DNA from: a virus
Strand: one strand, 5' to 3'
Length of the DNA stretch: 38,348 bases
Virus record (IMG/VR): IMGVR_UViG_3300035181_000817
Span: 1 to 38,348 of that record
The translations under genes and the position numbers were made by a program. The notes under the pieces were generated by a model, which was given only the letters and a program-made list of their open reading frames with translations, did not search any database and was not told the DNA's origin. The first letter of the stretch is position 1; every line of letters begins with the position of its first letter. Positions 19,438 to 38,348 of this stretch are shown in pieces.

Positions 19438-21103
19438 CATCGACGTTAAAGACCTGCCACCCCCGCCTACCTGGATGACGGGCGGCAAACCGCCAGCGTC
19501 GCCACAAACGTCTAAAGGTTCTACTGACGTCGACGTTAAAGACCTGCCGCCCCCGCCTGCCTGGATGACGCAAACCACGAAGTCGAGCGGCAACCCAGTC
19601 GCGCCTGAACCGGAAACGCCGCAATCCGCAGGGCACAACTGGTTGGACACTGCAATACAAGGCGCTAAAGGCGTTGTAGGCGGCATGAACGTGCCCTTCT
19701 GGAACGCTGTAGGGTCAATCCCTATCCCGGCAGTGCAGCAATACGCGCAAAAAGAGGCGCAAACTGCGGGCAATTTGGGTTCGCCGACTGGACAGGCGCT
19801 CGGCCAAGGGACGACACAAGCCCTCACTATGCTGGCGCAACCTGAAATCAAGGGGGCCATGTGGATGCGAGCGGCAGGCCAAGCCGCTCTTAGCGGGTTG
19901 CAGTCTTACCTAACAGCGCCGCAAGGTGAGAAAACCAAGGCCGCCGAAGTTGGTGCAGCAGCCGGCGGCGTACTAAGCAGCGCCGGGGCAGGACTGGCCA
20001 AATGGTTAGGGGGAAAAGCAGCAACACCTGCCGCCGAACGTGCCATCCAAGAGGCTAAAGGGCAAGGCTACAAGATCATGCCGAGTGCGGCAACGGGCTT
20101 CGGCAAAAGTGCGCAGGAGCTTATCAACGCGGGGAAAGGTTCTGCCGCCGCGCACAACTACAACCTCTATGAGCAGACGCTCGCAGAGTTGGCTGGCATC
20201 CCCAAAGGCGTCAAAATCGATAGCGACTCTTTGGCGCAGGCAAACAGCGCCATCTCGAACGCATTTGCGTCAAAGCTCGCCGGAAAGACGGTCAAAATTC
20301 CAGCGACAACAGCGTCTGCTGTGCGCGGCTTGGTGGAAAAGCAGCCGGCTATTGCCGAAGAAGTTGTCGGGGCTACGGGGCTATCAAAAGCGTTCGAGGC
20401 CGCCGCGCACGGAGAGCCTATCCCTGCAAAAGATTGGTTCGCCATTGTGCGGCAGCTTAAAGCCATGCGCTACGCTCAGAAAGAACCGAATGTCCAGCGC
20501 CAGCTAAGCTCAGTCATCGACGCGCTAGAGCTACCTGTCCAGCAGTTTAGCCCCGACATTAACAAGGCGTACCGAAACTTTAACAACCAATACCGCGCCA
20601 ATGCGTTGCTCCTTGATGCAACGGCCAACGACCTAAATTTTTTGCAGACCGGCAAGATCAACCCTGTCAAAGTGTGGGCAGCGGCGATGAACGACGCAAA
20701 ATCTACAAGTGCGCAGGCAAAGACACTCATCACCGACGACCCGTTGACACAGACCGTGCGACGCGCTGCGCAGTTAGACCTTGTTCCACAAGCACGAGAG
20801 GCAGGCGACGCTGAAATGCTGAACTTGCTCCTGGCCGGCGCACATACGGCGGGTGCGCCAGTGCATTTGTCTTTGGGGTCTTTCAACGTTCTCCCAAAAA
20901 TTGGCACTGCAATGGGGTTCGGCGCAGCCGGACGCGCATTGTATGGCTCGCCAATGGGACAAAGACTACTAGAATCGGGCCAGATGGTTGACCCCTTAAC
21001 CGGGAAGCTCATTCAGGCAGGAAGCCGAGCGATGGTGTCTACCTTGCCCGGCGCACTTCCGTCCTTTTCTTCATACGATCCGTCACCTGCGCCTTCCCAA
21101 TGA
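19427..21103 (+). CDS. Putative internal virion / DNA ejection protein 3
   Basis: 558 residues from the ATG at 19427. The N-terminus has two copies of a DVKDLPPPPxWMT motif, 30 residues apart (90 bp), each encoded by a nearly identical 40-bp sequence. A Gly/Ala-rich hydrophobic region with LSSAGAGLAKWLGGKAA follows (residues ~160-200), then a large helical domain. The repeated proline motif may be a peptide that binds a partner in the virion. The stop overlaps the next start. Confidence 0.6.
   Translation: MDNNIDVKDLPPPPTWMTGGKPPASPQTSKGSTDVDVKDLPPPPAWMTQTTKSSGNPVAPEPETPQSAGHNWLDTAIQGAKGVVGGMNVPFWNAVGSIPIPAVQQYAQKEAQTAGNLGSPTGQALGQGTTQALTMLAQPEIKGAMWMRAAGQAALSGLQSYLTAPQGEKTKAAEVGAAAGGVLSSAGAGLAKWLGGKAATPAAERAIQEAKGQGYKIMPSAATGFGKSAQELINAGKGSAAAHNYNLYEQTLAELAGIPKGVKIDSDSLAQANSAISNAFASKLAGKTVKIPATTASAVRGLVEKQPAIAEEVVGATGLSKAFEAAAHGEPIPAKDWFAIVRQLKAMRYAQKEPNVQRQLSSVIDALELPVQQFSPDINKAYRNFNNQYRANALLLDATANDLNFLQTGKINPVKVWAAAMNDAKSTSAQAKTLITDDPLTQTVRRAAQLDLVPQAREAGDAEMLNLLLAGAHTAGAPVHLSLGSFNVLPKIGTAMGFGAAGRALYGSPMGQRLLESGQMVDPLTGKLIQAGSRAMVSTLPGALPSFSSYDPSPAPSQ
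19441..19570 (+). repeat. 40-bp direct repeat pair in ejection protein 3
   Basis: Copies at 19441-19480 and 19531-19570 differ at two positions, both A/G changes. They encode the duplicated DVKDLPPPPxWMT motif. Confidence 0.85.
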
Positions 21104-22410
21104 AAATTCTCGTCATCGACCCGTCGGCGTTGGCGCTCGACTTTTGCCTGCGCAGCATGGCCGAGGGCGCACAAGTCCGGTGGTTCATCCGCAACAAGCC
21201 CGATGGGTTAATCACCGTCGGGGATCATCTTGTCCAGAAAGTGCAGCATTGGGAGCAGCACATGAACTGGGCAGACTTGGTGTTCTTGCCCGACAATGCG
21301 GTCTACATGGCCGACTTGGACAAGTGGCGGCAGCGCGGGTATCCGATCTACGGGGCCAACAGCTTCACTGCGCAGTGGGAGCTAAACCGGCAGGTCGGCA
21401 TGGATGTGCTCAAAGCGCATGGCGTGCCGCTCATCGAGGGCGAGACGTTCACCAGCTACGACAAGGCCATTGCCTACGTCAAGGCCAACATGGGGCGCTA
21501 CGTTTCCAAGCCGTTCGGAGACGCAGACCGCAGCCTGTCCTACGTCAGCAAAGGGCCGGCAGATATGGTCTACATGCTGGAAAAGTGGAAAAAGACCGGC
21601 AGGCACGTCCCCGCGTTCATCATGCAGAAGTTCCAACCCGGCATCGAGATGGCCGTGGGCGCATGGGTCGGGCCTGCCGGGTTCGCAAGCCCTTGGTGCG
21701 AGAACTTCGAGCACAAGAAGCTGATGAACGACGACAAAGGTCCGAACACAGGGGAGATGGGCACCGTCGTCACTTACACCGAGAAGTCCAAACTGGCCGA
21801 CAAAGTGCTCAAGCCGCTGGAGGAGTATCTAGTGCGCAGTGGGCACATTGGGTTCGTGGATGTTGCAGTCATCATTGACAACAAAGGCAATCCGTGGCCG
21901 CTAGAGTTTACGATGCGCCCAGGTTGGCCGATCTTCAACATTCAGCAGCAACTACACCGGAGCACAGCAAAATGGATGCTCGAAAGCCTAAACGGATCAT
22001 CGATCTGGACGAACTTCTTGACGGGCCTGTCGGCGACGGGGGTCGTGCTGGCGATCCCGGACTTTCCTTACAACAAACTGAGCCGCAAAGAAGTGTCGGG
22101 CACGCCGATCTACAACCTGGACGCGGTGAGCAGCCACATCCACCCCTGCGAGCTGAAGGCGGCGAAGGTGCCAGTGGAGCGCGGGAACAAGATCGTGGAG
22201 GAAATGCACCTCGTGAGCGCCGGGACGTATCTACTCATCGCAGCGGCGGCAGCGCCGACAGTGGACGCAAGTCGGGAGCAAGCCTACAAAGCCTTGGACT
22301 CGTTGTCGGTGCCGAACTCCCCGATATATCGGACGGACATTGGCAAGCGCCTCAGCTCCCAGTTGCCCAAGTTGCAGAAGATGGGCTATGCAACGAGCCT
22401 GAAACTGTAA
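21100..22410 (+). CDS. PurD-like ATP-grasp ligase family protein
   Basis: 436 residues. A short Rossmann-like N-terminus (KILVIDPSALALDF) is followed by ATP-grasp features: KPFGDADRSLSYVSKG, an IMQKFQPGIEMAVGAWV strand, and KKLMNDDKGPNTGEMGT, closely recalling the GPNTGGMG signature of phosphoribosylamine-glycine ligase (PurD). In PurD the metal-binding segment reads ExNxRFGDPE; here it is LEFTMRPGWP, so the Asn and the FGDPE are lost. The protein is probably an ATP-dependent carboxylate-amine ligase with a different substrate, unlikely to make GAR. It sits in the late gene block, overlapping the ejection gene by ATGA. Confidence 0.75.
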   Translation: MKILVIDPSALALDFCLRSMAEGAQVRWFIRNKPDGLITVGDHLVQKVQHWEQHMNWADLVFLPDNAVYMADLDKWRQRGYPIYGANSFTAQWELNRQVGMDVLKAHGVPLIEGETFTSYDKAIAYVKANMGRYVSKPFGDADRSLSYVSKGPADMVYMLEKWKKTGRHVPAFIMQKFQPGIEMAVGAWVGPAGFASPWCENFEHKKLMNDDKGPNTGEMGTVVTYTEKSKLADKVLKPLEEYLVRSGHIGFVDVAVIIDNKGNPWPLEFTMRPGWPIFNIQQQLHRSTAKWMLESLNGSSIWTNFLTGLSATGVVLAIPDFPYNKLSRKEVSGTPIYNLDAVSSHIHPCELKAAKVPVERGNKIVEEMHLVSAGTYLLIAAAAAPTVDASREQAYKALDSLSVPNSPIYRTDIGKRLSSQLPKLQKMGYATSLKL

Positions 22411-28490: not shown

Positions 28491-29141
28491 TCAAGCCTCC
28501 TTCTTCGGGTAAAGCACGCACTTATTCGCACTGCACCAGTTGCAAAGCGGCGAGGGCTTGGGCGCCCATCGCTCGTCGGCCTCAATCTGCGCAATGATGC
28601 GGGCAATCTTGTCCTCGACGGCTTGCAGGTTGCATCGCTCATGCACCACTTCTGCGCCGACCTTGCCGTGCTTCAGGTAGACGTTGAACCCGGTCACTAT
28701 CTCCACGGCAGGGAACGCTTTGAGGACAGCGAGCGCGTAGCAGTCGTGTTGCAGCGTGTCCTCATAGGGCTTGCCACTTTTCCAATCGCACACCACCGCA
28801 CGCTTGCCGTCGTCGCTGATGAGCAGCACGTCCAGCTTCGCCACAAACCCCTTTGGCGGCTTTGTCACGGCGTAATCGAACTTGTCATCAAGGAAGATCG
28901 TCTGCTCGATCCGCGCGTTGTCGATGCGGTTGCGCACGCTGCTGATGCTTTCCTCGTAGATCGTCAGCGGCTCGGGGAGCGGCGTGCGCGTCTTGAGCGC
29001 AGTCTCGATGGCCTCGTGAATCTCAACGCCGCTCGACGCCTCTTTGCTCTGGTAGGGCAGCGTATCCCGCGCTTTGTATTTCCGGTAGAACTGCTGCGGG
29101 CACTTCAGGTAGCAGCTCAGGCTGGAGTAGGAGTAGATCAT
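28491..29141 (-). CDS. Cas4/RecB-like PD-(D/E)xK nuclease with candidate Fe-S cysteines
   Basis: 216 residues. SYSSLSCYLKCPQQFYRKY at the N-terminus, an active-site D104, then VVCDWKSGK (D119-x-K121) and the QHDCY motif (Q131, Y135) are the hallmarks of the RecB-type nuclease fold. Three C-terminal cysteines (C200, C203, C208) plus an N-terminal cysteine (C10 or C14) could bind a 4Fe-4S cluster, as in Cas4 and AddB. No CRISPR array or Cas1 is nearby, so this is a replication/recombination exonuclease. Ribosome site AAGGAG. Confidence 0.87.
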   Translation of the reverse strand: MIYSYSSLSCYLKCPQQFYRKYKARDTLPYQSKEASSGVEIHEAIETALKTRTPLPEPLTIYEESISSVRNRIDNARIEQTIFLDDKFDYAVTKPPKGFVAKLDVLLISDDGKRAVVCDWKSGKPYEDTLQHDCYALAVLKAFPAVEIVTGFNVYLKHGKVGAEVVHERCNLQAVEDKIARIIAQIEADERWAPKPSPLCNWCSANKCVLYPKKEA

Positions 29142-29467
29142 TCTCGCTGCTCCTTCACGCTCACCAGCTTCTCAAGGTAGTGCAGAGCCTTCTTCAAGTC
29201 TTGCAGACCGTCGCCCTTCCGGCCTGCGCGTGAGAGATACTTGATCGCGTTCCCGCGCAAAAAGCCTTCAAACTCGGCCTCGCTCATCCAAGATTCCATC
29301 GCCGCCCACGGTTGAACTGCCAGTTCCTTGTAGTGGTCGCCGCCGATCTGGTAGCTATCAGCAAGCCGGCTTTTGTTCGCGGTGTATACCGTCCCGGCGA
29401 AACGGCATGTGTCATGATGCCGTTCACCGTCTTTTGCTCCGCACTTCACACAATACAAACTGCTCAT
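29138..29467 (-). CDS. DUF3310 domain protein (nucleotide kinase-like annotation)
   Basis: 109 residues from an ATG at 29467 that overlaps the polymerase stop (ATGA). An N-terminal pair of CxxC-like cysteines (YCVKCGAKDGERHHDTC) is followed by the DUF3310 signature GGDHYKELAVQPWAAME with GNAIKYLSRAGRKG. DUF3310 proteins are widespread in phages and often annotated as SaV-like; no activity is established for this type. The Cys/His N-terminus looks like a small zinc knuckle. Confidence 0.85.
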   Translation of the reverse strand: MSSLYCVKCGAKDGERHHDTCRFAGTVYTANKSRLADSYQIGGDHYKELAVQPWAAMESWMSEAEFEGFLRGNAIKYLSRAGRKGDGLQDLKKALHYLEKLVSVKEQRE

Positions 29468-32085
29468 TTTGAATAGTTCCTTGCATATCCGCCTGCACAA
29501 TTGAGCGGCACACCTTCCGCATAGCTCGGTGCCGCACGCATCACGCACTTCGCAAACTCGAACGCCTCGTCCGCCTCGCCTTCCCGCGCCAAAAAGACAA
29601 TCTCATCGTGCGTCATAGTGACCACGCGATACTTGCTCCTGATGGCAAGCATCTGGTCGGCCACAATGTCGCGGGCGATGGCCTGAACGATGTTCTCAAC
29701 CAGCGCCGCGCCGTAGAGTCTGCGCTTGTTCGCCCCCACACCATACTCATACCCATCCGGCGTCAAGCGTAGGCTAGGATAGCGCAGCACACGGCCAGAC
29801 GGCAAGCGAAGTGTCTCGAACTCGGTCATGATGAGACGCATCCACTGGATGCGGTCGTCCTGCATCATCGCTCGCAGCATACCATCGGCACGCTTCCAAA
29901 GTCGCGTAATCGCGCCGTATGTGTTACGGTATGTAGCAACATACTGCTGCGCGTCCTCAAGAGTTGTGTCGGGCTGCTTGGTGACGATCTGCGCGTGGAG
30001 CTTGGCATGGCCGACCCCATAGCCAAGCCCCAAGATACAATTATGAACAATTATTGGCCCTTGATTCGTCATCACCATGAACCGGTTGTTCGGTCCGCAA
30101 TTGAGCAAGTCGTAGACTGGCAAGTTCTCTTTCGAGGGCGAGGATTCTTTGTGATAAATCGTTCGCCTTTCTTCGGTTTGCAACGTTTTGCTTCCGAGTA
30201 ACGAACCTGATATTCCCTGGCGCATAGGGGCCGTCAACGTCAATCCTGTCAAGCTCAAGCGTTGGATTGTCCCATCCAGGTACAGTCTGAACGTACCGGA
30301 GAAACGCTGCGCGATCCTCGCGCCATGCTGGATCAACGTAAATGCCCCTCCCACCATAACTGGGGAACGCTGCGCTCTTCGGATTGTGGCATCTACTAAT
30401 GCACGACGACAATCTGCTAAGTAGCCGCGACCTATGCGCGTCGTCTGAAAGCGCGGCTTTATATTTCCACCATCGTTTCGCCCCCGCAGCGACTTTTGCG
30501 CACGCATTGCAGCGCGTTGAACGCCCTGCAAGAATGTTTTCACGGCTAACAATACCTTCCCACCCGCATGAGCACCGGCAAACAGGGTGCCACCCTGCCG
30601 CCCGCCCAGTGCGCGACCGATGCGGCTCAAACCGGAGCACGGTAAGCTCGCCAAATCGAGCGCCGACCGGAAAAGGCCACGGTTTGACTGGACCTCTGAC
30701 CACTCCCGCCATCCAAGTCCCGTCAGGATTTCGTGGTCCTCCGTCGCGGCGATCCCGAAACGCCGGAGCGTCGGTTTGTATCCCTGAAATTGCAGCCCAC
30801 TGTGTTTTACCCATGATTCACCATCCCATACCAAGTCCATAACCGAAACTTGAACTATAGGCTTCCACCCTTTGTCAGTCAAGACTTTAGTGTCGGCTGC
30901 CAAGCAGGTTTTCCCTACGAAGCGTTTGATCTCGTCAATCTCTTCCCCCGGCCATATCCGCTCCGCGAACTTGACGTAAACGTCCTCACCTGCGGCAAAC
31001 TGCGCCAGCAAGTCATCCTGGCCAGCCAGCCACGCGAGCACGCGGGCCTCGATCTGGCTTGAGTCCACGACGACCAGCACATACCCGTCCGGGGCCGTCA
31101 AGCACTTGCGCAATGCCGAGCCTCGGTTCAGGTTCTGCATGTTCAAGCCGTCCGCGCCCGACCAGCGGCCCGTGTGTGCGCCGTAATATTTGAGCGGCAC
31201 TGGCATCGACCCGCGCCCGCTTACACCAAGAAACTTCGTCGTCCGCCGTAGCTCTGAGACGCTCTTAGCGGCCAGCCGGCCTTGGATGAGCACAGCCGCA
31301 CGCGGATCGGCTTTGAGCGCCAGCATGTCGGGATCATCCTTGCGCAGCGTCTCGGGAACCTGAACCCCACGCGCCGCGAGCACTGCGGCAAACTGCGGGT
31401 TGCTCATCAGCACGTCGAGGCTCACCCCGGATGCTGCGACAGCCGCGTCGCGCTGCGCCTCCAGCTCCGCCAGCCGCGCTTGAAGTAGCGCCGCGTCGAT
31501 CGTCAACACTGGCTCAGTGAACATGCGCACTGTGCAGTCGATCAGCGCCAGCTCACGCTTGTAGCGAATTTCTGGCAGCTCCGACCGAAGGGCGGCATCG
31601 AGCGCGTGATGCAGCTTGCGCAGCAGCTCCACGTCCTGCCTGCAATACTCGGCCAACCGCGTCTCTAGCATGGGGTCGAGGTCGCGCACACCGAGGGTTT
31701 TTACCAGCGCGTCACCCTTCGCGCCCAAGCCATATCGCTCACTCAGCGCTGCCAGGGAATGCTTACCATGCACATCAGCTAGCCGCGCCATGCTCAGTGT
31801 GTCCACGATGCGCCGCGGCCTGACGTTGTAGTGCCAGGACAGGATTGCCATATCGAACGCAGCATTGTGGGCGCACCAATATGCGTGTGAAAATCTCTCC
31901 GCGAGTTGGAGCAAGGCCGTAGACGCCGACGGGCCGGACCGCCACCAGACAGAACCATCATCGATGCAATAGGCGAACCCATGCACCTTGAACCGCGCAT
32001 CACGGATATATTCTTCCGTGGACATTTTCGACAAAGTGTAACTTTTGTCATAGTATGTTTCAAAGTCGATGTAGATTGTTGTCAA
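29464..32085 (-). CDS. Family A DNA polymerase precursor with an intein in motif B
   Basis: 873-residue precursor; after splicing about 584 residues. Proofreading exonuclease: DFET (D7, E9), HNAAFDMA (N74, D78), AEYCRQD (Y147, D151). Polymerase: motif A VVVDSSQIEAR (D341, E346), motif B EIKRFVGK joined across the intein to ILGLGYG, motif C MTHDEI (H826, D827). The intein occupies residues 394-682 and splits the fingers O-helix, so polymerase activity should require splicing. The start is TTG at 32085 with a GGAGAG site. No thioredoxin-type insert is obvious; a sliding clamp is encoded upstream at 34076. Confidence 0.93.
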   Translation of the reverse strand: MTTIYIDFETYYDKSYTLSKMSTEEYIRDARFKVHGFAYCIDDGSVWWRSGPSASTALLQLAERFSHAYWCAHNAAFDMAILSWHYNVRPRRIVDTLSMARLADVHGKHSLAALSERYGLGAKGDALVKTLGVRDLDPMLETRLAEYCRQDVELLRKLHHALDAALRSELPEIRYKRELALIDCTVRMFTEPVLTIDAALLQARLAELEAQRDAAVAASGVSLDVLMSNPQFAAVLAARGVQVPETLRKDDPDMLALKADPRAAVLIQGRLAAKSVSELRRTTKFLGVSGRGSMPVPLKYYGAHTGRWSGADGLNMQNLNRGSALRKCLTAPDGYVLVVVDSSQIEARVLAWLAGQDDLLAQFAAGEDVYVKFAERIWPGEEIDEIKRFVGKTCLAADTKVLTDKGWKPIVQVSVMDLVWDGESWVKHSGLQFQGYKPTLRRFGIAATEDHEILTGLGWREWSEVQSNRGLFRSALDLASLPCSGLSRIGRALGGRQGGTLFAGAHAGGKVLLAVKTFLQGVQRAAMRAQKSLRGRNDGGNIKPRFQTTRIGRGYLADCRRALVDATIRRAQRSPVMVGGAFTLIQHGARIAQRFSGTFRLYLDGTIQRLSLTGLTLTAPMRQGISGSLLGSKTLQTEERRTIYHKESSPSKENLPVYDLLNCGPNNRFMVMTNQGPIIVHNCILGLGYGVGHAKLHAQIVTKQPDTTLEDAQQYVATYRNTYGAITRLWKRADGMLRAMMQDDRIQWMRLIMTEFETLRLPSGRVLRYPSLRLTPDGYEYGVGANKRRLYGAALVENIVQAIARDIVADQMLAIRSKYRVVTMTHDEIVFLAREGEADEAFEFAKCVMRAAPSYAEGVPLNCAGGYARNYSK
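30040..30906 (-). mobile_element. Intein (289 residues) in the DNA polymerase gene
   Basis: First residue Cys (block A, LAADTKVLTDKGWKP), block B ATEDHEILTGLGWREW with the TxxH motif, C-terminal block F VYDLLNCGPNNRF and block G GPIIVHN, followed by Cys at the +1 extein position. All residues for protein splicing are present. In the polymerase frame the ~180 residues between blocks B and F have no recognisable domain; that DNA instead encodes an HNH endonuclease in another frame. Confidence 0.93.
30041..30814 (-). CDS. HNH homing endonuclease nested out of frame within the intein
   Basis: 257 residues, same strand as the polymerase but shifted in phase; entirely inside the intein. Residues ~45-110 (GARFGELTVLRFE..., CRCSCGWEGIV, RCNAC) are a DNA-binding and zinc-type module seen before phage HNH domains. 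The catalytic HNH region contains SSCISRCHNP, YGGRGIYVDPAWR, LDRIDVDGPYAPGNIRFVTR and QNVANRR. The ATG at 30814 has a GGTGA site; an alternative start is ATG at 30712. Its stop codon TAA (30041-30043) overlaps the intein's final His-Asn codons. It would be made as a free protein. Confidence 0.88.
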   Translation of the reverse strand: MGKTQWAAISGIQTDAPAFRDRRDGGPRNPDGTWMAGVVRGPVKPWPFPVGARFGELTVLRFEPHRSRTGRAAGWHPVCRCSCGWEGIVSRENILAGRSTRCNACAKVAAGAKRWWKYKAALSDDAHRSRLLSRLSSCISRCHNPKSAAFPSYGGRGIYVDPAWREDRAAFLRYVQTVPGWDNPTLELDRIDVDGPYAPGNIRFVTRKQNVANRRKANDLSQRILALERELASLRLAQLRTEQPVHGDDESRANNCS

Positions 32086-32143
32086 TTGGCTCTCTCCGTG
32101 CGTTTACTATGGCAGGGCACGCGCTGTATAAGAAACGTAGCGT

Positions 32144-32377
32144 TCATTGTGCTTCCTCTGGAAATTTCGACAGCGCCGGTTGCGCCTCAGCCTTCGCGCT
32201 GTAGAACCCGCGCTCGTAACCTTCCCGGTATGCATCACGCAGCGCTATATGCACAAGGTTCGCAGGCCGAGGGGTTGGGAACCGTATCGTATAGGTTGAC
32301 GCGCCGACCTCGTAAACGGCAATCCCGGCCTCATGCTTGGAGCCGCCGTCCCACTTGAATTTAACTGCGTCTTTCAT
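32144..32377 (-). CDS. Small conserved phage protein upstream of polymerase
   Basis: 77 residues, start at an ATG with GGAGGAAAC upstream (an in-frame upstream ATG is not preferred). Contains TIRFPTPRPANLVHIALRDA and a REGYERGFYSAKAEAQPAL helix. No function known to me. It lies in the early operon between the winged-helix gene and polymerase. Confidence 0.65.
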   Translation of the reverse strand: MKDAVKFKWDGGSKHEAGIAVYEVGASTYTIRFPTPRPANLVHIALRDAYREGYERGFYSAKAEAQPALSKFPEEAQ

Positions 32378-32388
32378 GTTTCCTCCAT

Positions 32389-32601
32389 TTATGCCGCCCA
32401 TCGATACAGCGCCACGCGCCGGGTTCCGAGCGGCTTGATGACTTCAGCCACTTCGACCAGGCCAGCGCGGCGTAGGCGCAGCACGACGTTCGACACGCTG
32501 CGCACGGGTCGGCAAATTTCGGTTGCAATCTGCCGAATGCTGCGCGGCTCAGGCGCGTGCATCAGCAGATCGGCGACAAGGTAGACAGTTCGAGGGGTCA
32601 T
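32389..32601 (-). CDS. Small winged-helix DNA-binding protein
   Basis: 70 residues, start at ATG (ATGA overlap with the repeat protein upstream). SIRQIATEICRPVRSVSNVV is a helix-turn-helix and LRRAGLVEVAEVIKPLGTRR the wing, as in MarR-like or small phage regulators. It could control the early-to-late switch; there is no direct evidence. Function is inferred from the fold pattern. Confidence 0.7.
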   Translation of the reverse strand: MTPRTVYLVADLLMHAPEPRSIRQIATEICRPVRSVSNVVLRLRRAGLVEVAEVIKPLGTRRVALYRWAA

Positions 32602-33677
32602 CGCTCGATCCTCTTCGGACACCACGTCGCGGCCACGATGTTAGCAAACCCTAGGTATTGCAGACACTTAAGCTCGTTACCATCGGCGCGAACCTTTGCG
32701 CGGAACGCATCCAGATCGCCCGAAAAGCACCCGGCCTCAACCCAGGGGCCGCCCTCGACGTTGAACGCGTAGACCGTTCGATTGCCGCTGCCAGCGCCGG
32801 ACAGGGCCAGCAGCGGATAGCCCGGTTTTGCGCGTTTCCCACCGAAGAAACACCCACTGCCGAAGGTGCAACGCCCGCCGAAGCGGCAAGCCTTGCCGAA
32901 GCTGCAAGACCCGCCGAAGCTGCAAGACCCGCCGAATCTGCACCCAAACCCGAAGCTGCAAGACTTGCCGAAGATGCAAGACTTGCCGAAACTGCAATAC
33001 TCCTCAAAGGCGCAAGCCGTGTCGAAGCTGCACCACTCTCCGAAACTGCAAGACGCGCCGAAACTGCAAGACTCGCCAAAACTGCAACGCCCGCCGAAGC
33101 TGCAATAATCGCCGAAGCTGACCCCACTACCGAAGTGGCACGCACCATCGAAGTTGCACCCACGGTCGAACTCGCATTCGCTGCCGAAGCTGCAACGCCT
33201 ACCGAAATAGCACTCATCGCCGAAGCTGCAAGACTCGCCAAAACTGCAATCCTTGCCGAAACTGCATAAATAGCCGAAACCGCAAGACTTTCCGAAACTG
33301 CAAGACTCGCCAAAACTGCAAGACTCGCCAAAACTGCACTCGTCTCTAAAACTGCAACGCTTACCGAAACTGCAAGACTCATCAAAGCTGCAAGACTCGC
33401 CGAAGACGCAATACTCGCCGAAACTGCAATACTCGCCGAAGATGCAAGAATTACCGAAACAGCAATACTCGCCGAAACTGCAACGCTTACCAAGGTTGCA
33501 ACGATCACCGAAGTTGCATTGCTCGCCGAATTTGCAATCCTCGCCAAAAGTACAAGACGCGCCGAAACTGCAAGACGCGCCGAAACTTTGTACTTGCGAG
33601 TAGTCGCCAGTCGGGCACTGCCGAACTCCGTCCACCATCGGCAGGGCGTCAAACTCTGCTTGCGTAAAAACTCTCAT
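32598..33677 (-). CDS. Hexapeptide-repeat protein with cysteine ladder (predicted left-handed beta-helix)
   Basis: 359 residues, preceded by GAGGA. After a 30-residue N-terminus (MRVFTQAEFDALPMVDG), residues 31-282 consist of 42 consecutive six-residue units of consensus CSFGES, with Phe-Gly at fixed positions and Cys at the sixth. Forty units have Cys, one has Val (GSGV), and the last breaks off. The periodicity fits the left-handed beta-helix (three units per turn, so 14 turns); Phe and Cys would stack inside. A distinct C-terminal domain (YPLLALSGAGSGNRTVYAFN, GCFSGDLDAFRAKV) follows. Function unknown. I do not recognise a named family. Confidence 0.8.
   Translation of the reverse strand: MRVFTQAEFDALPMVDGVRQCPTGDYSQVQSFGASCSFGASCTFGEDCKFGEQCNFGDRCNLGKRCSFGEYCCFGNSCIFGEYCSFGEYCVFGESCSFDESCSFGKRCSFRDECSFGESCSFGESCSFGKSCGFGYLCSFGKDCSFGESCSFGDECYFGRRCSFGSECEFDRGCNFDGACHFGSGVSFGDYCSFGGRCSFGESCSFGASCSFGEWCSFDTACAFEEYCSFGKSCIFGKSCSFGFGCRFGGSCSFGGSCSFGKACRFGGRCTFGSGCFFGGKRAKPGYPLLALSGAGSGNRTVYAFNVEGGPWVEAGCFSGDLDAFRAKVRADGNELKCLQYLGFANIVAATWCPKRIER
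32832..33587 (-). repeat. 18-bp coding repeat array, 42 units
   Basis: The DNA behind the hexapeptide domain. Units share the codons for Cys-Ser-Phe-Gly. Units vary too much for slipped-strand identity, so they look old and under coding constraint. Confidence 0.88.
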
Positions 33678-33687
33678 GGGTCGTTCC

Positions 33688-33900
33688 TCACGTAGTCAAG
33701 TCAAGAACAGCGAACAGCATCAAAACTGCCCACAGCGCCCACGCGATGCCGATGGCGATCTCGAATGCTGATAGCCGCTCGGGCCGGGGCAGGTCCGGGT
33801 ACGGAGCCGGAGTCAAGTTGTCCAAGTCTGAGCACTTGCCGATGCCTGGGTACAGCCGCGCAGGGCAGCGGCGGCCTTGATGACAATCTCGATCACACAT
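33688..33900 (-). CDS. Small membrane protein with cysteine-rich N-terminus
   Basis: 70 residues. The N-terminus CDRDCHQGRRCPARLYPGIG with four or five cysteines resembles a recurring small phage protein with a CxxxCxQGRxCPxR pattern. A single membrane span AFEIAIGIAWALWAVLMLFA ends the protein. Its start is overlapped by the previous small gene. Ribosome site GGGGAAA is moderate. Function unknown. Confidence 0.65.
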   Translation of the reverse strand: MCDRDCHQGRRCPARLYPGIGKCSDLDNLTPAPYPDLPRPERLSAFEIAIGIAWALWAVLMLFAVLDLTT

Positions 33901-34066
33901 ATCTGTTTCCCCACTTAGGATCAGCGCCTTCGAGCAGCAGGCCGCCATTTTTGCGTGCGGTGAGCCATGCCCGCAGCCAGCGGCGGCGCATAGCCGGGTC
34001 AGTCCATAGCCGCCGCGCCATGCGCCGCAGTTCGAGCAGGGCATAAGGGGTTGAGCGTTGACGCAT
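33893..34066 (-). CDS. Small basic protein, not covered by longer frames
   Basis: 57 residues, found by reading the strand directly: ATG at 34066 with AAGGTG five bases upstream, stop overlapping the next gene (ATGTGTGA). Composition is Arg/Trp-rich (LRRMARRLWTDPAMRRRWLR). A long shadow frame on the same strand hides it. It has all marks of a translated small gene; the function is unknown. Confidence 0.6.
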   Translation of the reverse strand: MRQRSTPYALLELRRMARRLWTDPAMRRRWLRAWLTARKNGGLLLEGADPKWGNRYV

Positions 34067-34075
34067 GGCGGCACC

Positions 34076-34627
34076 TTAGGGGCGGAACGGCATGATGACG
34101 CCGAGGAACGCATCGCGGGACAGATGCACCAGCGCACCGCGCTCGCCGTTATGGTCGAGCTTGATGCGCCCGGGATACTTAGCGCCGAACGCCTTGTTGA
34201 CCTGGGCAAAGAGGGACAGCAGGTCAACGTCAAACTGCGCCGCTTCGCCGCTCGTTTCAGCCGGGATGACTTTTGTATAGTCGGGGTACTTGCCATCGAG
34301 CGGGGTAAAGCCGAAGTCCTGGCCAGCGCCGGGGTTGATGATGCGGGCGGTATTCGCCTCGGGGTTAAAGGTCAAGTCGCCCCACTTCGCCGTTCCGCGC
34401 TTAGGCTTGAGTTGTTTCACCACGTCGGCTGGGATGATGACGCTGAACGTATGCTCGTTCTCAACCGCTTCAGTATACATACCGAGCGCATGGCTGTTCG
34501 TGGCAACGTAGACTGTTTTGTCGCGCTGAAAGTCAACGTAGATGCCGTTCAGGTAAAAACGAACGTCATTTTTAGCAGCCAGGGGCAGCAAGACGCGGAC
34601 AACTTCGAGGTTGATGGTGTTTTCCAT
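34076..34627 (-). CDS. Half-length DNA sliding-clamp-like protein (DnaN domains 2-3)
   Basis: 183 residues. Segments typical of beta-clamp domain 2: LNGIYVDFQRDKTVYVATNS followed by HALG, then FSVIIPADVVKQL; LDGKYPDYTKVIP; and a C-terminal VIMPFRP, equivalent to the VMPMR ending of DnaN. Only about half of a bacterial clamp (about 366 residues) is present, so the ring may be made of more subunits, or it may act with the host clamp loader. Encoded upstream of the polymerase in the same strand block. Ribosome site AAGGAGAG. Confidence 0.72.
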   Translation of the reverse strand: MENTINLEVVRVLLPLAAKNDVRFYLNGIYVDFQRDKTVYVATNSHALGMYTEAVENEHTFSVIIPADVVKQLKPKRGTAKWGDLTFNPEANTARIINPGAGQDFGFTPLDGKYPDYTKVIPAETSGEAAQFDVDLLSLFAQVNKAFGAKYPGRIKLDHNGERGALVHLSRDAFLGVIMPFRP

Positions 34628-34642
34628 GATTTTCTCTCCTTG

Positions 34643-35083
34643 TTAAACAGTAGCGGGAAGCTTGTAATACGACATGCCGCGAAGCCGGGCGCAGTTGGCG
34701 CACCCTACGCAGTCAACGCATTTAGCGCAGTCTGCGCACGCTACGCAGTCAGCGCAGTTAATGCAGCCGGCGCATCTCGCGCAGTTGGTGCATCTCGCGC
34801 AGCCGGTGCAGCCGGTGCAGCCGGTGCAGCTTGCGCAGTCGAGGCACTCGGTGCAGCCGGTGCAGCTTGCGCAGTCGAGGCAGGCAATGCACCCGGCGCA
34901 GTCGATACAGTCTGCGCATCCAATGCAGTCAACACAGCCGGCGCATCCAGCGCAGTCGATGCAGCCGATGCAGTCAACACAGCCGGCCTCATCGAGCGCC
35001 TTGCAGCGGGCTTCGGCGTCGGCCTGGCTCGCGTCGCTCCATGAGCGGTTGCCACGCGGGGACACACTAGATTCATAACGCAT
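34643..35083 (-). CDS. Cysteine-triplet repeat protein (33 Cys at every third residue)
   Basis: 146 residues with an ordinary N-terminus (MRYESSVSPRGNRSWSDASQ), then residues 35-131 in which every third residue is cysteine: 33 in unbroken register, with pattern [small or aliphatic]-[Asp, Gly, Ser, Asn]-Cys. Total cysteines are 34 (about 23%). The C-terminus is a short ordinary tail. A metal-binding or redox polymer, or a narrow solenoid, is possible; I recognise no named family. AAGGAGAGAG site and a candidate promoter lie upstream. Confidence 0.8.
   Translation of the reverse strand: MRYESSVSPRGNRSWSDASQADAEARCKALDEAGCVDCIGCIDCAGCAGCVDCIGCADCIDCAGCIACLDCASCTGCTECLDCASCTGCTGCTGCARCTNCARCAGCINCADCVACADCAKCVDCVGCANCARLRGMSYYKLPATV
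34691..34981 (-). repeat. 9-bp coding repeat array in the cysteine-triplet gene
   Basis: About 33 units of three codons ending in TGC or TGT. Sub-blocks recur (for example Cys-Leu-Asp-Cys-Ala-Ser-Cys-Thr twice), suggesting local duplication of 27-54 bp pieces. Confidence 0.85.
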
Positions 35084-35108
35084 GATGGCTCTCTCCTTGT
35101 TTGATGGT

Positions 35109-35123
35109 GCAGCGTGATGCTGC
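35109..35123. promoter_or_regulatory. Inverted repeat near the cysteine-triplet gene promoter
   Basis: GCAGC - 5-nt loop - GCTGC, about 7 bases downstream of the -10 of the promoter at 35131-35158. It would form a 5' stem-loop in the transcript or an operator at the start site. Confidence 0.45.
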
Positions 35124-35130
35124 GGTGTGA

Positions 35131-35158
35131 ACTATAAATGAAAATGTGCGGGATGCAA
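35131..35158 (-). promoter_or_regulatory. Candidate sigma70-like promoter for the cysteine-triplet and clamp genes
   Basis: On the minus strand TTGCAT (35153-35158), 16-bp spacer, TATAGT (35131-35136, five of six). The -35 is weak. Position fits a start about 45 nt before the ATG at 35083. Confidence 0.45.
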
Positions 35159-35178
35159 ATTGATTTTTTCTATCGGGT

Positions 35179-35970
35179 TTAGGCGGTCGATTTCCTGGCG
35201 CGGTAGGCGGCCTGGGCACGGCGCAGCGCGGCCTTGCCCTTGTCAGACTGAGCATACCGAGCGCGGGCGGCCTTGCCTTTGTCAGACTGGGCATAGCGGG
35301 CGCGGGCGGCCTTGCCTTTCTCGCTCTGCAAGTATTGCTTGCGCGCGGCCCGGCCTTTCTCGCTCTGTAGGTATTGCTTGCGAGCGGCCTTGCGCTGCGC
35401 TTGCCATGCGTGGATGGAGCCATCGAGCCGGCGCAGGTGCTTTTCCCAGTAATACTCGGAGCGGGCCTCGACCGGCGCGGTCGGGTCGGGCGCATGGTAT
35501 AGCGGGCCAGGGGCGGACGGCATCGGCGGCGGGGCGATCGGGGCGAGCTTAGGAAGCGCCGGGGCGGAGGGGGATGGCGGCGGCGCGTTGCGCTTGAGCG
35601 CGTCGATGCGGCGCACTAGACGCATAGCAATGCTCGCATCCTCGCGCATACGCAAGCGCATTGCGTCGGCTGCGGGTGAGCCTGCACACTTATACGCAAG
35701 GCTGCGAACAAGATCGACAGCATGACGGAGGCCAGCGCCGAGCGCCAGCGCAGTCGGGACGGACGCAACGGCGGGATGCAGGATGCAAGCGCGGTGTTCC
35801 GCGTCGGCGCGTGCGTAGAGCTTGAGCATTGCGCGATGCGCACGGCCAGCGGCCAGCACGTCGGGGCGGCGGTCTTTGCGCACGACAGATTTTGCTCGAT
35901 CACGCGCATGACGCGCAGCATTGCGGCGGCGGGCGGCCTCGAGCATGGGGGAGAGTTTATCGGGTAGCAT
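35179..35970 (-). CDS. Basic protein with 13-residue Lys/Arg repeats
   Basis: 263 residues, first gene after the AT-rich gap. N-terminus Arg/Ala-rich; a proline-rich linker with APPPSPSAPALPKLAPI at ~130-165. Residues 195-246 are four tandem 13-residue units (two AARKQYLQSEKGK/R, two AARARYAQSDKGK), a pattern YxQSxKGKAA that recurs in environmental phage and bacterial proteins and may bind nucleic acid. Start is uncertain: no strong ribosome site at 35970, and a second ATG lies eight codons downstream. Function unknown. Confidence 0.65.
   Translation of the reverse strand: MLPDKLSPMLEAARRRNAARHARDRAKSVVRKDRRPDVLAAGRAHRAMLKLYARADAEHRACILHPAVASVPTALALGAGLRHAVDLVRSLAYKCAGSPAADAMRLRMREDASIAMRLVRRIDALKRNAPPPSPSAPALPKLAPIAPPPMPSAPGPLYHAPDPTAPVEARSEYYWEKHLRRLDGSIHAWQAQRKAARKQYLQSEKGRAARKQYLQSEKGKAARARYAQSDKGKAARARYAQSDKGKAALRRAQAAYRARKSTA
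35233..35388 (-). repeat. 39-bp coding repeats, four units
   Basis: Four units of 39 bp encoding the YxQSxKGKAA repeat. The two left-hand units and the two right-hand units are more alike within each pair, so the array grew by pair duplication. A degenerate fifth unit extends to 35194. Confidence 0.8.
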
Positions 35971-36080
35971 GGCAAGGATGGAGGGTAGATTTTTATAAGT
36001 AGTTGATTTTGCAGGGGAATTTAGGGTTTAGCGGGTAGATCAGCGCCCGGGGATAGGGGCGTGGGGCTTTACATGCCACT

Positions 36081-36110
36081 ACTATAACATGCAGTGCTAT
36101 ATATTAACAA
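36081..36110 (-). promoter_or_regulatory. Second candidate leftward promoter
   Basis: Minus strand TTGTTA (36105-36110), 18-bp spacer, TATAGT (36081-36086). Downstream of the stronger promoter at 36134; either may serve the basic-repeat gene. Confidence 0.4.
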
Positions 36111-36133
36111 TGTAATGCTAGTTTTTGTTAGTT

Positions 36134-36162
36134 TTTATAGTGGCTAGATAAATAAAGGTCAA
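36134..36162 (-). promoter_or_regulatory. Strong candidate leftward sigma70 promoter
   Basis: Minus strand TTGACC (36157-36162), 17-bp spacer, TATAAA (36134-36139). Both boxes match five of six and the spacing is ideal. It likely drives the basic-repeat, cysteine-triplet, clamp and polymerase block. Confidence 0.7.
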
Positions 36163-36352
36163 AAACACTATGCAAATCAAGTACTTGCGATAGGTGGGGG
36201 GCTTCAAGCCGGTGGGCGCGTTTCCCGGCCGCCCGCTGCGCCGATCCCGGGCGATATAGGTAGAATGTAAAGCGATCCGGCCCTATCCTTTTTCTGTGTC
36301 TAGCAGGATAACGGGCAAAAATGATAAGCAAGTCAAACACTTAGCGGTTTCC

Positions 36353-36367
36353 GCACCAGAATGGTGC
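36353..36367. promoter_or_regulatory. Perfect 6-bp inverted repeat
   Basis: GCACCA - GAA - TGGTGC. No T tract on either side, so it is not a normal terminator. It shares AATGGTGC with the inverted repeat at 37666-37683 and may be a regulator site. Confidence 0.4.
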
Positions 36368-36446
36368 AGGATAGTAGATGCTGGCGCGCGCGCCGCTGCG
36401 CCGACTGCTCAAGGATTAAGCGGCCGATGTGAGTGCCCACTAACTT

Positions 36447-36617
36447 TTATCCCCTAACCGCGAGCAGCACGCCCATGAACACCCCGAGCATGACGGCGCC
36501 GGGGATTTCCCGGCCCCGGCTGGTGCGCGGTTCGGGCCTGTAGATTTCCCTGTAGCGATCGAGCGCTTTCGCCCCACGCACCATCTCGATGTTTGCGGTG
36601 TATTCAGACTCTCTCAT
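36447..36617 (-). CDS. Small protein with C-terminal membrane span
   Basis: 56 residues from the ATG at 36617, with GAGGGG upstream. Charged N-terminus (YTANIEMVRGAKALDRYREI), then the hydrophobic PGAVMLGVFMGVLLAVRG. Last gene of the first leftward early unit. Unknown function. Confidence 0.55.
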   Translation of the reverse strand: MRESEYTANIEMVRGAKALDRYREIYRPEPRTSRGREIPGAVMLGVFMGVLLAVRG

Positions 36618-36627
36618 GTTCAGCCCC

Positions 36628-36957
36628 TCAGAACTGCCGGAACAGGAACTTGTCGCCATCCGACCAAATGACGGTCGTGCGCTCGCTCAGGAACTTTTCG
36701 ACCATCTCGCGCCGCGCTTCGTCGTCCTCACAGCCCGATGCGTCTAGGCCATAGTCGCTGATGATCTCGTCTACGCTTGACTCTTGGAAGTCGCAGCAAA
36801 GCGCGATTACGTCAAGCTCGATTTGCTCGCCGGTTTCTTCCTCAAGCTGCTCAAGGTACTCGAAGAGCGCCCGCAGCGCCTCGTCGCTGAATTGATTCCC
36901 GCGCCCGGCGCGGCGGAAGGCGTCGATGAAATCGAAAAAGGTGACGCGTTGGAACAT
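36628..36957 (-). CDS. Conserved acidic early phage protein
   Basis: 109 residues from the ATG at 36957, AGGAGAG site. Acidic, with RVTFFDFIDAFRRAGRGNQF, ALRALFEYLEQLEEETGEQI and ELDVIALCCDFQES. Proteins with this FxDFxxAFxxxGRxxQFS ... EYLEELEEDTGExIELDVIALCC layout occur in many phages and plasmids, often near anti-defence or early genes. Function not established; its strong acidity could suit DNA mimicry, which is speculation. Confidence 0.75.
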   Translation of the reverse strand: MFQRVTFFDFIDAFRRAGRGNQFSDEALRALFEYLEQLEEETGEQIELDVIALCCDFQESSVDEIISDYGLDASGCEDDEARREMVEKFLSERTTVIWSDGDKFLFRQF

Positions 36958-36988
36958 GATGCTCTCTCTCTCTCCTGGGGCAGATTGA

Positions 36989-37207
36989 TTACAGGGCGCG
37001 GACAATTTGAACTTCGCCGCTGGCTTTCAGGGAAGCGGCCAGGGCTGCGGCCTCTTCGACAGTGTTAGCGTGGATAAATCGCATCGTCTCCGACCGAGAC
37101 CATCCGGGGTTATCCGCGCTCCGATAGTCTTTTGTGACCATCACTGTGGGGCGGCCGGCTGTGTCGGTGCCGTAGTAGGCGGCTTTGATTGTGGTGGTAG
37201 CAGTCAT
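36989..37207 (-). CDS. Small early protein, first gene of leftward unit
   Basis: 72 residues with an AGGAGAG ribosome site directly before the ATG at 37207. Contains KAAYYGTDTAGRPTVMVTKD and EEAAALAASLKASGEVQIVR. Immediately downstream of a promoter with a perfect -10. Unknown function; possibly a host take-over protein by position. Confidence 0.65.
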   Translation of the reverse strand: MTATTTIKAAYYGTDTAGRPTVMVTKDYRSADNPGWSRSETMRFIHANTVEEAAALAASLKASGEVQIVRAL

Positions 37208-37225
37208 CGTTTACTCTCCTAGTTA

Positions 37226-37245
37226 GCATCGCGGTGTTGCGATGC
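37226..37245. promoter_or_regulatory. Inverted repeat at the leftward early start site
   Basis: GCATCGC - 6 nt - GCGATGC, beginning 4 bases downstream of the -10 at 37250-37255. It could be an operator or a protective 5' stem-loop of the transcript. Confidence 0.55.
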
Positions 37246-37249
37246 CTGT

Positions 37250-37278
37250 ATTATAACAAACGAGTTCACGACAAAGTC
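37250..37278 (-). promoter_or_regulatory. Leftward early promoter
   Basis: Minus-strand perfect TATAAT (37250-37255); a GACTTT lies at 17-bp spacing as a poor -35. The weak -35 suggests an activator or strong extended contacts. It drives the unit from 37207. Confidence 0.6.
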
Positions 37279-37321
37279 ATTCCGTTGCAAACTTTTACAC
37301 TTTTATTTTTTCTGGCGGGAA

Positions 37322-37428
37322 AGCAAGAAACGTGCCAGGATGTCGCAAGCAAGATGCGTGCCAGGTTACGAACGGTTGCAGGGGTTACATTCGGTTACAG
37401 TCTCGGGTAGCAAGAAACGTGCCAGGAT
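37322..37428 (+). repeat. Three iteron-like 20-bp direct repeats
   Basis: Copies at 37322-37341, 37348-37367 and 37409-37428; consensus AGCAAGAwrCGTGCCAGGwT. Copies 1 and 3 are identical. Between copies 2 and 3 lie short GGTTAC direct repeats. Spacing is 26 and 61 bp. Likely a binding site for an initiator or regulator. Confidence 0.75.
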
Positions 37429-37534
37429 TGGAACTCTGGAATCCACCCGGACGGACGGGGTGAAATTTTATAACTCCGGGGTGCCGCCCATTCCGCGTTC
37501 AAGTTTCAAAATTCCCCCGCGTTGCTACTACTTG

Positions 37535-37604
37535 CGGACGCTTGCGCCCGTCCAGCGCCTGCTTGCTCCCGCTTGCTCTCCGCCTACGGACGCTTACGCC
37601 CGTC
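37535..37604 (+). repeat. Pair of 18-bp direct repeats with internal symmetry
   Basis: Copies at 37535-37552 and 37587-37604 (CGGACGCTTrCGCCCGTC), period 52, flanking tandem CTTGCTC units. Each copy carries a GGACG/CGTCC-like dyad. Function unknown. Confidence 0.65.
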
Positions 37605-37628
37605 AAGCACCCACACAATAAACGTGAC

Positions 37629-37657
37629 TTGACAACGTTGCGCCGCTGCCGAATAAT
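37629..37657 (+). promoter_or_regulatory. Strong rightward promoter for the regulator gene
   Basis: Perfect TTGACA (37629-37634), 17-bp spacer, AATAAT (37652-37657, five of six). Start site near 37664, upstream of the inverted repeat and the AGGAGT ribosome site. Confidence 0.75.
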
Positions 37658-37665
37658 TCCGCCCA

Positions 37666-37683
37666 GCACGCAATGGTGCGTGC
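37666..37683. promoter_or_regulatory. Inverted repeat at the rightward start site
   Basis: GCACGCA - ATGG - TGCGTGC, perfect 7-bp arms, starting 8 bases after the -10. Possible operator (autoregulation by the gene product) or 5' stem-loop. Confidence 0.55.
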
Positions 37684-37703
37684 CCGTCACTAGGAGTAAC
37701 TAA

Positions 37704-37898
37704 ATGGACATTGACCCGATCTTGAGAACGCGAGACGTCATGCGGATCACGGGGCAGGCACGCTCAACTATTTATGACAAGCTCAGCCGCGGCGAATTTC
37801 CCAAGCCGGTGAAGCTCGGACAGCGGGCCATCGGCTGGTACACATCAGACATCGCCAAGTGGCTGGAATCGCTCAAAGGCGGGCCGAAACATGAGTGA
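37704..37898 (+). CDS. AlpA/excisionase-like helix-turn-helix regulator
   Basis: 64 residues with an AGGAGT site. RTRDVMRITGQARSTIYDKL, GEFPKPVKLGQRAIGWYTSD and IAKWLESLK are the AlpA-type winged-helix pattern (tyrosine in the recognition helix, then PKPVKLG wing). No integrase is in the window, so the protein is more likely a transcriptional regulator than an excisionase. It lies next to the divergent control region, the natural place for it to act. Confidence 0.85.
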   Translation: MDIDPILRTRDVMRITGQARSTIYDKLSRGEFPKPVKLGQRAIGWYTSDIAKWLESLKGGPKHE

Positions 37899-38079
37899 TG
37901 CTCATGCACATACGGGCGGCCCGGATTCCTCTGGCGCGGTCAAAATCATCATCGAGGTGAGCGAGGCCGGCGTGCTAAAAATCCATGCATCCGCTCCAGA
38001 CGAGAGTGCAGTGGTCGTTGCACTGGCTACTGCACTGGCCGCCGTCAAAAATGTTGACAGCGAGCAGTTTTTGCACTAA
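37891..38079 (+). CDS. Small acidic protein after the regulator
   Basis: 62 residues, ATG overlapping the regulator stop by 8 bp, so co-translated. VKIIIEVSEAGVLKIHASAP then AVVVALATALAAVKNVDSEQ: a short beta-beta-helix. Unknown function. No clear relation to small terminases, though its position before terL would allow one. Confidence 0.65.
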   Translation: MSDAHAHTGGPDSSGAVKIIIEVSEAGVLKIHASAPDESAVVVALATALAAVKNVDSEQFLH

Positions 38080-38082
38080 TCT
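38054..38082 (+). promoter_or_regulatory. Candidate promoter before terL
   Basis: Perfect TTGACA (38054-38059), 17-bp spacer, TAATCT (38077-38082, weak). Lies at the end of the preceding gene and upstream of the hairpin, so a transcript from here would carry the hairpin in its leader. Confidence 0.4.
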
Positions 38083-38115
38083 ACCCACACTCTCTCCTCC
38101 TCCCCCTGGAGCTTG

Positions 38116-38140
38116 CGGCCCACTTGTGGGCCGTCTTTTT
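38116..38140 (+). terminator. Terminator hairpin directly abutting the terL start
   Basis: CGGCCCAC/GTGGGCCG stem with T-rich TCTTTTT tail ending at 38140; the terL ATG is the very next base. A classic intrinsic terminator that closes the regulator unit. It can also act as an attenuator for late transcription. Confidence 0.8.
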
Positions 38141-38348
38141 ATGTCTCAGACATCGCCTCTAGTCGAATTGATCGCGGAGTTGCAAGCAGACAAGCAGTTT
38201 GCACTCTCCTACATCTTTGCGCATCGGCATCCAGACGAGACGCCTGCGTTCCATAAGCAGATCGTTGCTGCGTGGGATGACCCGCACCCCCGCGTGCTCA
38301 TCGAAGTGTTCCGAGGCGGCGGGAAATCGACGCTCGCAGAGGAATATC
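38141..38348 (+). CDS. terL: Terminase large subunit, 5' portion (continues at position 2)
   Basis: Starts MSQTSPLVELIAELQADKQF and, read across the contig ends, continues in frame into the gene at position 2; it contains the Walker A RGGGKST near its right end. No ribosome site precedes the ATG because the terminator T tract is immediately upstream. Alternative in-frame starts (GTG at 38126 inside the hairpin, ATG at 38051) are less convincing. Translation may start from read-through RNA or in a leaderless manner. Confidence 0.85.
   Translation, partial: MSQTSPLVELIAELQADKQFALSYIFAHRHPDETPAFHKQIVAAWDDPHPRVLIEVFRGGGKSTLAEEY
38203..38348. repeat. Contig-end overlap, right copy
   Basis: Right-hand copy of the 146-bp overlap described at positions 1-146. 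A physical terminal repeat of the virion cannot be told apart from an assembly overlap here. Confidence 0.9.

Follow-up and report, generated by a model that had tools for sequence, protein, structure and literature searches.

We find that a minus-strand gene of the window, a virus record of 38,348 bases that is possibly a fragment, encodes a small protein (the CXX protein) in which every third residue of a long array is cysteine. Selection keeps these cysteines while the intervening x residues vary, and the protein belongs to a family spread widely among phages, some members of which share a C-terminal domain with other repeat proteins and which varies strongly in one phage group. Its fold, coil length, intracellular site and binding role we infer, tentatively, as follows: CXX would be a phage accessory protein whose array winds into a slender beta-helix, right-handed and four-sided, like that of TmAFP (the antifreeze protein of the beetle Tenebrio molitor), acting as an easily diversified binding rod inside the infected cell.

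The layout of the gene and its neighbors is given in Table 1. The original prediction had counted 33 cysteines in perfect period-3 register over 97 residues, and this is exact (residues 35-131 of the open reading frame at 34643-35083); the 34th cysteine of the protein, residue 27, is out of register. In the N-terminal cap, GN..W is followed by E/D-A and then by a helix that runs up to the first cysteine of the array (alignment A1). The 15-residue tail is alike in six close relatives (alignment A1), and the Shine-Dalgarno-like sequence AAGGAGAG lies on the coding strand seven bases 5' of the ATG. When the codons of the gene were shuffled 20,000 times, the longest in-phase cysteine run was nine (mean 3.1), compared with 33 in the real gene. 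Since 23 of the 32 nine-base units in the array are distinct, its DNA is no simple microsatellite.

Table 1. Features of the CXX gene and neighboring genes in the window.
Feature	Position	Strand	Details
CXX (cysteine-triplet) protein gene	34643..35083	minus	146 aa, ATG start, stop codon included
N-terminal cap, residues 1-34	34982..35083	minus	alignment A1, 30 proteins
CXX array, residues 35-131	34691..34981	minus	33 Cys, period 3
C-terminal tail, residues 132-146, ARLRGMSYYKLPATV	34646..34690	minus	alignment A1
Putative Shine-Dalgarno-like sequence AAGGAGAG	35091..35098	minus	read from the sequence
Sliding-clamp-like neighbor	34076..34627	minus	DNA_pol3_beta_2 1.5e-8; best PHROG family named RusA-like resolvase
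Companion hexapeptide gene, 359 aa	32598..33677	minus	Pfam Hexapep 3.1e-9; C-terminal GCF domain

The window gene and six relatives, aligned as proteins, were compared codon by codon in 21 pairs, with two contigs supplying two sequences each. In 464 comparisons of cysteine codons, 118 differences were synonymous and 11 non-synonymous, versus 359 synonymous and 670 non-synonymous among 1839 comparisons of other codons; the pairs share history and the counts are not independent. The contrast is large despite this shared history, and the open reading frame is a protein under selection, in which cysteine is kept while the x residues vary. The possibility raised at the outset, that the frame is untranslated or a degenerate repeat free of constraint, is therefore answered in the negative by the cysteine codons. 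A neutral, expanding DNA repeat that is open by accident would account for the nine-base unit and for the near-perfect repeats in some relatives, but it is refuted, in our view, by the codon data; the conserved caps (alignment A1) and members that mix TGC and TGT freely (16 and 16 in L151, 13 and 22 in L210) also speak against it, and we give it next to no credence. In most of the 83 related open reading frames described below, the cysteine codon fits the third-base composition of the gene, with exceptions such as L274, L262 and L285; codon usage and the shuffles together reject a chance or microsatellite origin.

The search for similar triplet-cysteine proteins that the original prediction had proposed was productive. 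A protein search found seven loci and a second protein query 49, and a degenerate pattern requiring eleven TGY spaced nine bases apart found at least 120 stretches in viral contigs, many of them artefacts (frames overlapping collagen-like genes, CxGC microsatellites). An HMM of the cap matched 89 of 13,448 open reading frames, 86 of which have at least eight in-phase cysteines (84 after removal of copies), a result that is partly circular because the HMM includes the first cysteine columns. One candidate (L148) was dropped by eye as an artefact, and the 83 open reading frames with at least ten in-phase cysteines were analyzed; one of the 83 arrays is contained in another. We define the family by the N-terminal cap followed by at least ten cysteines at period 3, an arrangement that the window protein has (alignment A1). 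Nearly all members come from viral contigs and three from bacterial genome contigs (L151, L205 and L210). A single set of related contigs, the L119 group, supplies 43 of the 83.

The cap consensus is approximately W.D..GN......EEA......L.NC (alignment A1). Cysteine occupies 2041 of the 2059 register positions in the 83 members, a proportion biased upward because members were chosen by in-phase cysteines. The exceptions fall in 16 unique contexts, of which the L007 cap accounts for two, and are Ser (seven), Phe (three), Arg (two) and Lys, Ala, Gly and Tyr (one each), never His, Asp or Glu. The first x is most often Ser (43%), followed by Arg (11%), Ile (9%) and Thr (9%); the second x is mainly Asp (30%), Gly (17%), Asn (17%), Tyr (9%) and Ser (9%), so that D, G, N or S fills it in 73% of cases.

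A genome scan gave at least 117 stretches, and among those listed, seven of 16 filtered open reading frames (six loci) look genuine: two in L151 and the others in L176, L205, L210 and the Patescibacteria-type contigs L159 and L180. In the latter two (L159:1814-2698 and L180:3461-4771, both minus strand), CXX stretches of 14 and 13 cysteines, respectively, are followed by a tail motif (Y.I.NK.YSKE.Y). A similar tail occurs in the phage CXX protein L290 (phmmer, E 5e-5 among tails) and, by eye, in L099. A second C-terminal domain (WHTC.TTHCRAGW) follows the array in L124, also in L316 and, by eye, in L017, L038, L279, L286 and L292; phrog_31265 was checked for this domain in L124 only, and the match in Flavobacterium phage FL-1 is in two pieces.

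As far as our searches show, this widespread family is without description, although a cluster number exists. The window protein matches phrog_15341 of PHROGs v4 (unknown function) with E 7.9e-19 (protein 22-133, profile 23-132 of 276), a score of the kind that low-complexity matches inflate, and in a further scan the same profile matched nine of ten proteins. The tenth (L057:863-1759, minus strand of a viral contig) is a CEGNLN-type hexapeptide protein (Bactofilin 3.9e-16) of solenoid type, with cysteine at every sixth residue. No Pfam family, Hexapep and the pentapeptide repeats (A(D/N)LXX) included, matches the window protein up to E 1, and NCBIfam gave no match. Thus the earlier remark that no standard fold is known holds for Pfam and NCBIfam, but the family itself already exists as the uncharacterized PHROG 15341. 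Literature searches with cysteine-triplet wording returned nothing relevant, and other wording could hide a description.

Members also occur in named phages. Campylobacter phage IBB_35 carries a CXX open reading frame of 183 aa (AEI88196) with 46 cysteines in register when single gaps are allowed, CP220 carries two (CPT_0032 and CPT_0154, with 27 and 26 cysteines in register), and that of CP20 has 12 and is ended early by a stop. The IBB_35 and CP220 proteins have the same type of cap and array as the window protein and are annotated as hypothetical. In Flavobacterium phage FL-1 the CXX frame has 36 cysteines and corrects the annotation, since the database entry for the gene (APZ82901) uses a different frame. 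A tblastn search of the whole protein and cap pieces against named phages returned no CXX relative and two weak matches (E 5 and 10), in our view because the arrays are masked by low-complexity filtering; the relatives that it missed came to light through structure and pattern searches. A predicted model of the CXX protein L084 had as its best match in a library of viral models the IBB_35 entry H6SUK4 (E 2e-5, 141 aa, 33% identity), which is named 'Caib/baif family protein' and is known here by model match and name rather than by sequence. For the model of the window protein the same entry was the one match worth naming (E 6.3e-3). A literature search for 'baif' with Campylobacter and phage found only one unrelated paper, and by word search the main texts of two papers on Campylobacter phages (PMC3322345 and PMC4546147) do not mention cysteines.

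Within the window, genes for the large terminase, portal and major head proteins lie on the plus strand, and genes for a primase-helicase, a helicase, an exonuclease and a family A DNA polymerase on the minus strand. The CXX gene is placed among the replication-type genes, away from the structural genes, between the sliding-clamp-like gene and a gene with 12-residue repeats. The latter (35179-35970, minus) encodes a 263-aa protein with several tandem units (KGKAARxRYAQSD-like) and matches nothing in Pfam or PHROG up to E 1. The companion hexapeptide gene, about 1 kb from the CXX gene, encodes FGxxCx hexapeptides (left-handed beta-helix type) followed by the GCF domain, which in other phages is joined to CXX arrays. 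Zinc-finger profiles also match this protein, matches that we think are driven by composition. Elsewhere in the window, the family A polymerase gene (29464-32085, minus) holds an in-frame insert with ends that look intein-like by eye, and a 257-aa HNH endonuclease frame (30041-30814, minus; phrog_374, E 9.7e-33) lies wholly within this insert in another frame; the polymerase has 873 aa, versus 584 and 597 in the relatives L003 and L006. The plus strand also encodes an ATP-grasp protein resembling phosphoribosylglycinamide synthetase (21100-22410; GARS_A 9.4e-9) and a 469-aa protein with many near-identical repeats (13991-15400; AADTQAASGTLTVVxQAAQ). A nucleotide search of window positions 29000-38348 against named phages gave no match.

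The GCF domain (consensus approximately IGSRN..T.YW....V.CGCF.G.L..F) is common to some CXX proteins and two other kinds of repeat protein. An HMM built from four domains, three of CXX proteins and one of a hexapeptide protein, matched 34 open reading frames: 27 in our loci and seven in named phages, where seven of the ten matching records were covered. Repeats precede the domain in all 34 (7 CXX, 19 hexapeptide and 8 pentapeptide), as classed by eye, with several frames cut by contig ends, only two repeat units in L310 and a weak match in L315 (E 1.6e-4). The CXX proteins are L084, L063, L101, L274, L285, L289 and L262; the others differ from them in having repeats of five or six residues and other core rules. 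The corresponding clusters, phrog_20532 and phrog_7964, were tested for L084 and the window hexapeptide protein. The window CXX protein itself ends 15 residues after the array, with no GCF domain and no match to phrog_20532; in the window phage the domain belongs to the hexapeptide gene, which accompanies the CXX gene. A plasmid search with the GCF domain found no match.

The original prediction had offered a polyproline-like or three-sided solenoid, or a chain of metal clusters. Among these options a beta-solenoid with a cysteine core appears best supported; a three-sided form seems less likely than a four-sided coil of 12 residues, and the polyproline-like form found no support. We favor four sides because the inner residues of TmAFP (C2, S5, C8 and A11) recur at every third position (PMC8038014) and because exact internal duplications spanning at least four triplets are most frequent at a four-triplet lag (8 seen versus 0.9 expected, six loci). 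This duplication peak would fit 12-residue coils. The lag-four peak in triplet autocorrelation is gone once duplicated blocks are removed, leaving a flat profile, and cysteine counts modulo 4 are only weakly uneven among related sequences. Coil length taken from cysteine counts modulo n or from same-tail pairs was set aside as not decisive, with a few events dominating the pairs.

Structure prediction, which had been suggested as a check, placed bridges at every third residue, but neither model is confident in its repeat part. In the model of the window protein (mean pLDDT 51.8; blocks 35-59, cap residues 1-30 65-76), single-residue bridges occur at the first x of each triplet over residues 42-66; the second half of the array has few bridges, two short helices and little order. 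The L084 model is better overall (mean pLDDT 73.7; 86-92 in the first 30 residues, 82-95 in the C-terminal domain) and has the same bridges at the first x over residues 62-95, within a repeat (residues 41-100) at pLDDT 42-54. With VIA-align, the top match of the window model was TmAFP (1ezg; Z 3.5, rmsd 3.7, 67 residues), followed by SV2C luminal domains at Z 2; a Z of 3.5 is weak, under the level that the tool calls informative. With phmmer, TmAFP was matched largely through composition (E 0.0076), and the top hit, a repeat of 9e5c, aligns without cysteines. For the L084 model, the PDB matches listed are almost only to the C-terminal domain (best Z 4.9, a ribosomal protein), with no solenoid for the array among them, an absence from the list that carries no weight against one. 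Since these scores are weak and AlphaFold2 tends to produce false beta-solenoids from perfect repeats (PMC11795689), the solenoid reading rests more on the shared domain and the register than on the models.

CXX and TmAFP are alike in having a conserved residue at every third position and a tiny repeat, and a cysteine-rich core, known in TmAFP, is predicted for CXX. They differ in that the TmAFP core is C-S-C-A rather than all cysteine as CXX would have it, and TmAFP carries TCT ice-binding rows, whereas Thr precedes Cys in only 0.8% of cases in the 83 open reading frames; ice binding of the beetle antifreeze type was rejected on this ground. The sequences give no evidence of common descent.

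In the mechanism we propose, the CXX gene would yield a small accessory protein made of an N-terminal cap, the array and a short tail. Each coil would comprise 12 residues in four triplets, with the cysteines, by analogy with TmAFP, pointing inward and both x residues outward, the second x lying at the turn; D, G, N and S are usual in tight turns. Each triplet would be a self-contained brick, so that units could be gained, lost or swapped by recombination with the register kept, and the outer residues would be free to change. Such a rod would provide a cheap, easily diversified binding surface, akin to the pentapeptide and hexapeptide repeats to which the GCF domain is joined in other phages, and would be used within the infected cell against a target of the host or of a rival phage.

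The strict retention of cysteine favors a chemical role of the thiols. Because this retention is near-absolute, a thiol role in metal or redox chemistry must be weighed seriously against a pure scaffold. The foremost alternative, although an unlikely one, is a protein that binds metal ions or clusters: its array would fold around Cu(I), Zn(II) or Fe-S and serve, in the infected cell, to buffer metal or pass electrons, as a metallothionein-like store or a line of thiolate sites. It would explain why cysteine makes up one third of the array in a set that was itself selected by cysteine, and free x residues are likewise a feature of metallothioneins; the radical-SAM genes found in Campylobacter phages with CXX genes are a weak link in the same direction. 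However, CxC and CC motifs define metallothioneins, and the window array has neither of them and no CP. Aromatic residues and His (Tyr, Trp, Phe and His together) make up about 7% of the first x and 13% of the second, and to our knowledge metallothioneins mostly lack aromatics. The replacement of cysteine mostly by Ser and Phe, rather than by His, Asp or Glu, also argues against metal, as does the shared C-terminal domain, which points to solenoids. A 4Fe-4S ferredoxin (CxxCxxCxxxCP) was rejected given that the window array has no proline and no Pfam match.

Less probable still is a disulfide-laddered rod, in which the same 12-residue beta-helix would have its cysteines oxidized in pairs across the core and would sit outside the reducing cytoplasm, in the virion or on the cell surface. 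TmAFP-type proteins have C2-C8 disulfides in each coil (PMC8038014), and the CXX pattern would permit two per coil. The virion proteome of IBB_35 is given as 38 proteins (PMC3322345). Against an extracytoplasmic rod, no signal peptide is evident by eye in the window protein, and the gene's position on the minus strand, apart from the structural genes, argues the same way.

Polyproline-II and 3-10 conformations both repeat about every three residues, which would place the cysteines of such a chain on one face without a solenoid core. We consider this very unlikely given the proline-free window array and an L084 model that has, at low confidence, bridges rather than helix at residues 62-95.

Variation of the CXX genes was compared in two groups of phages. 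Those of the L119 group are clustered in banks, with 14 along a record of 85.7 kb, 11 along one of 16.5 kb and 9 along one of 41 kb (our own approximate counts, with pieces of one open frame counted once), among small genes whose stops and starts often overlap. Between L256 and L254 of this group, 14 matched non-CXX genes are 97.2-100% identical and three are without match. Of seven comparable CXX genes, one is 100% and one 93.1% identical to its best match and five are at 61-77%, where the best match is not always at the same site in L254 and assembly chimeras in the repeats are possible; L256 has ten CXX genes, and the three beyond the end of L254 were left out. By eye, the banks in L256, L254, G001, G003 and G004 share tails and have exchanged array segments that look like segmental recombination. 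In the group to which the window belongs, L003 and L006 share 72% identity in the CXX gene, 67-78% in three neighboring accessory genes (the clamp-like gene, the hexapeptide gene and one more) and 90-98% in core genes; the accessory genes are equally diverged, and no special variability of CXX is seen there. The variation in the L119 group may be read as hinting that diversifying pressure acts on a surface, and no more. A broader proposal, which we regard as possible but doubtful, is that an undescribed class of beta-solenoid, its core consisting of cysteine alone and each 12-residue coil contributing four thiols, is kept by some phages as recombining paralogue banks (about 14 in the largest record) that supply a diversifying binding surface in infection; its column of thiols might also hold metal.

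If the predicted fold is right, CXX would be a beta-solenoid repeat protein and, among natural protein rods, a very narrow one, built from three-residue bricks with thiols filling the entire core; such a rod would be useful for design. Should an arms race lie behind the variation in the one phage group, the family would mark a point of contact between the phage and a target of its host or of a rival.
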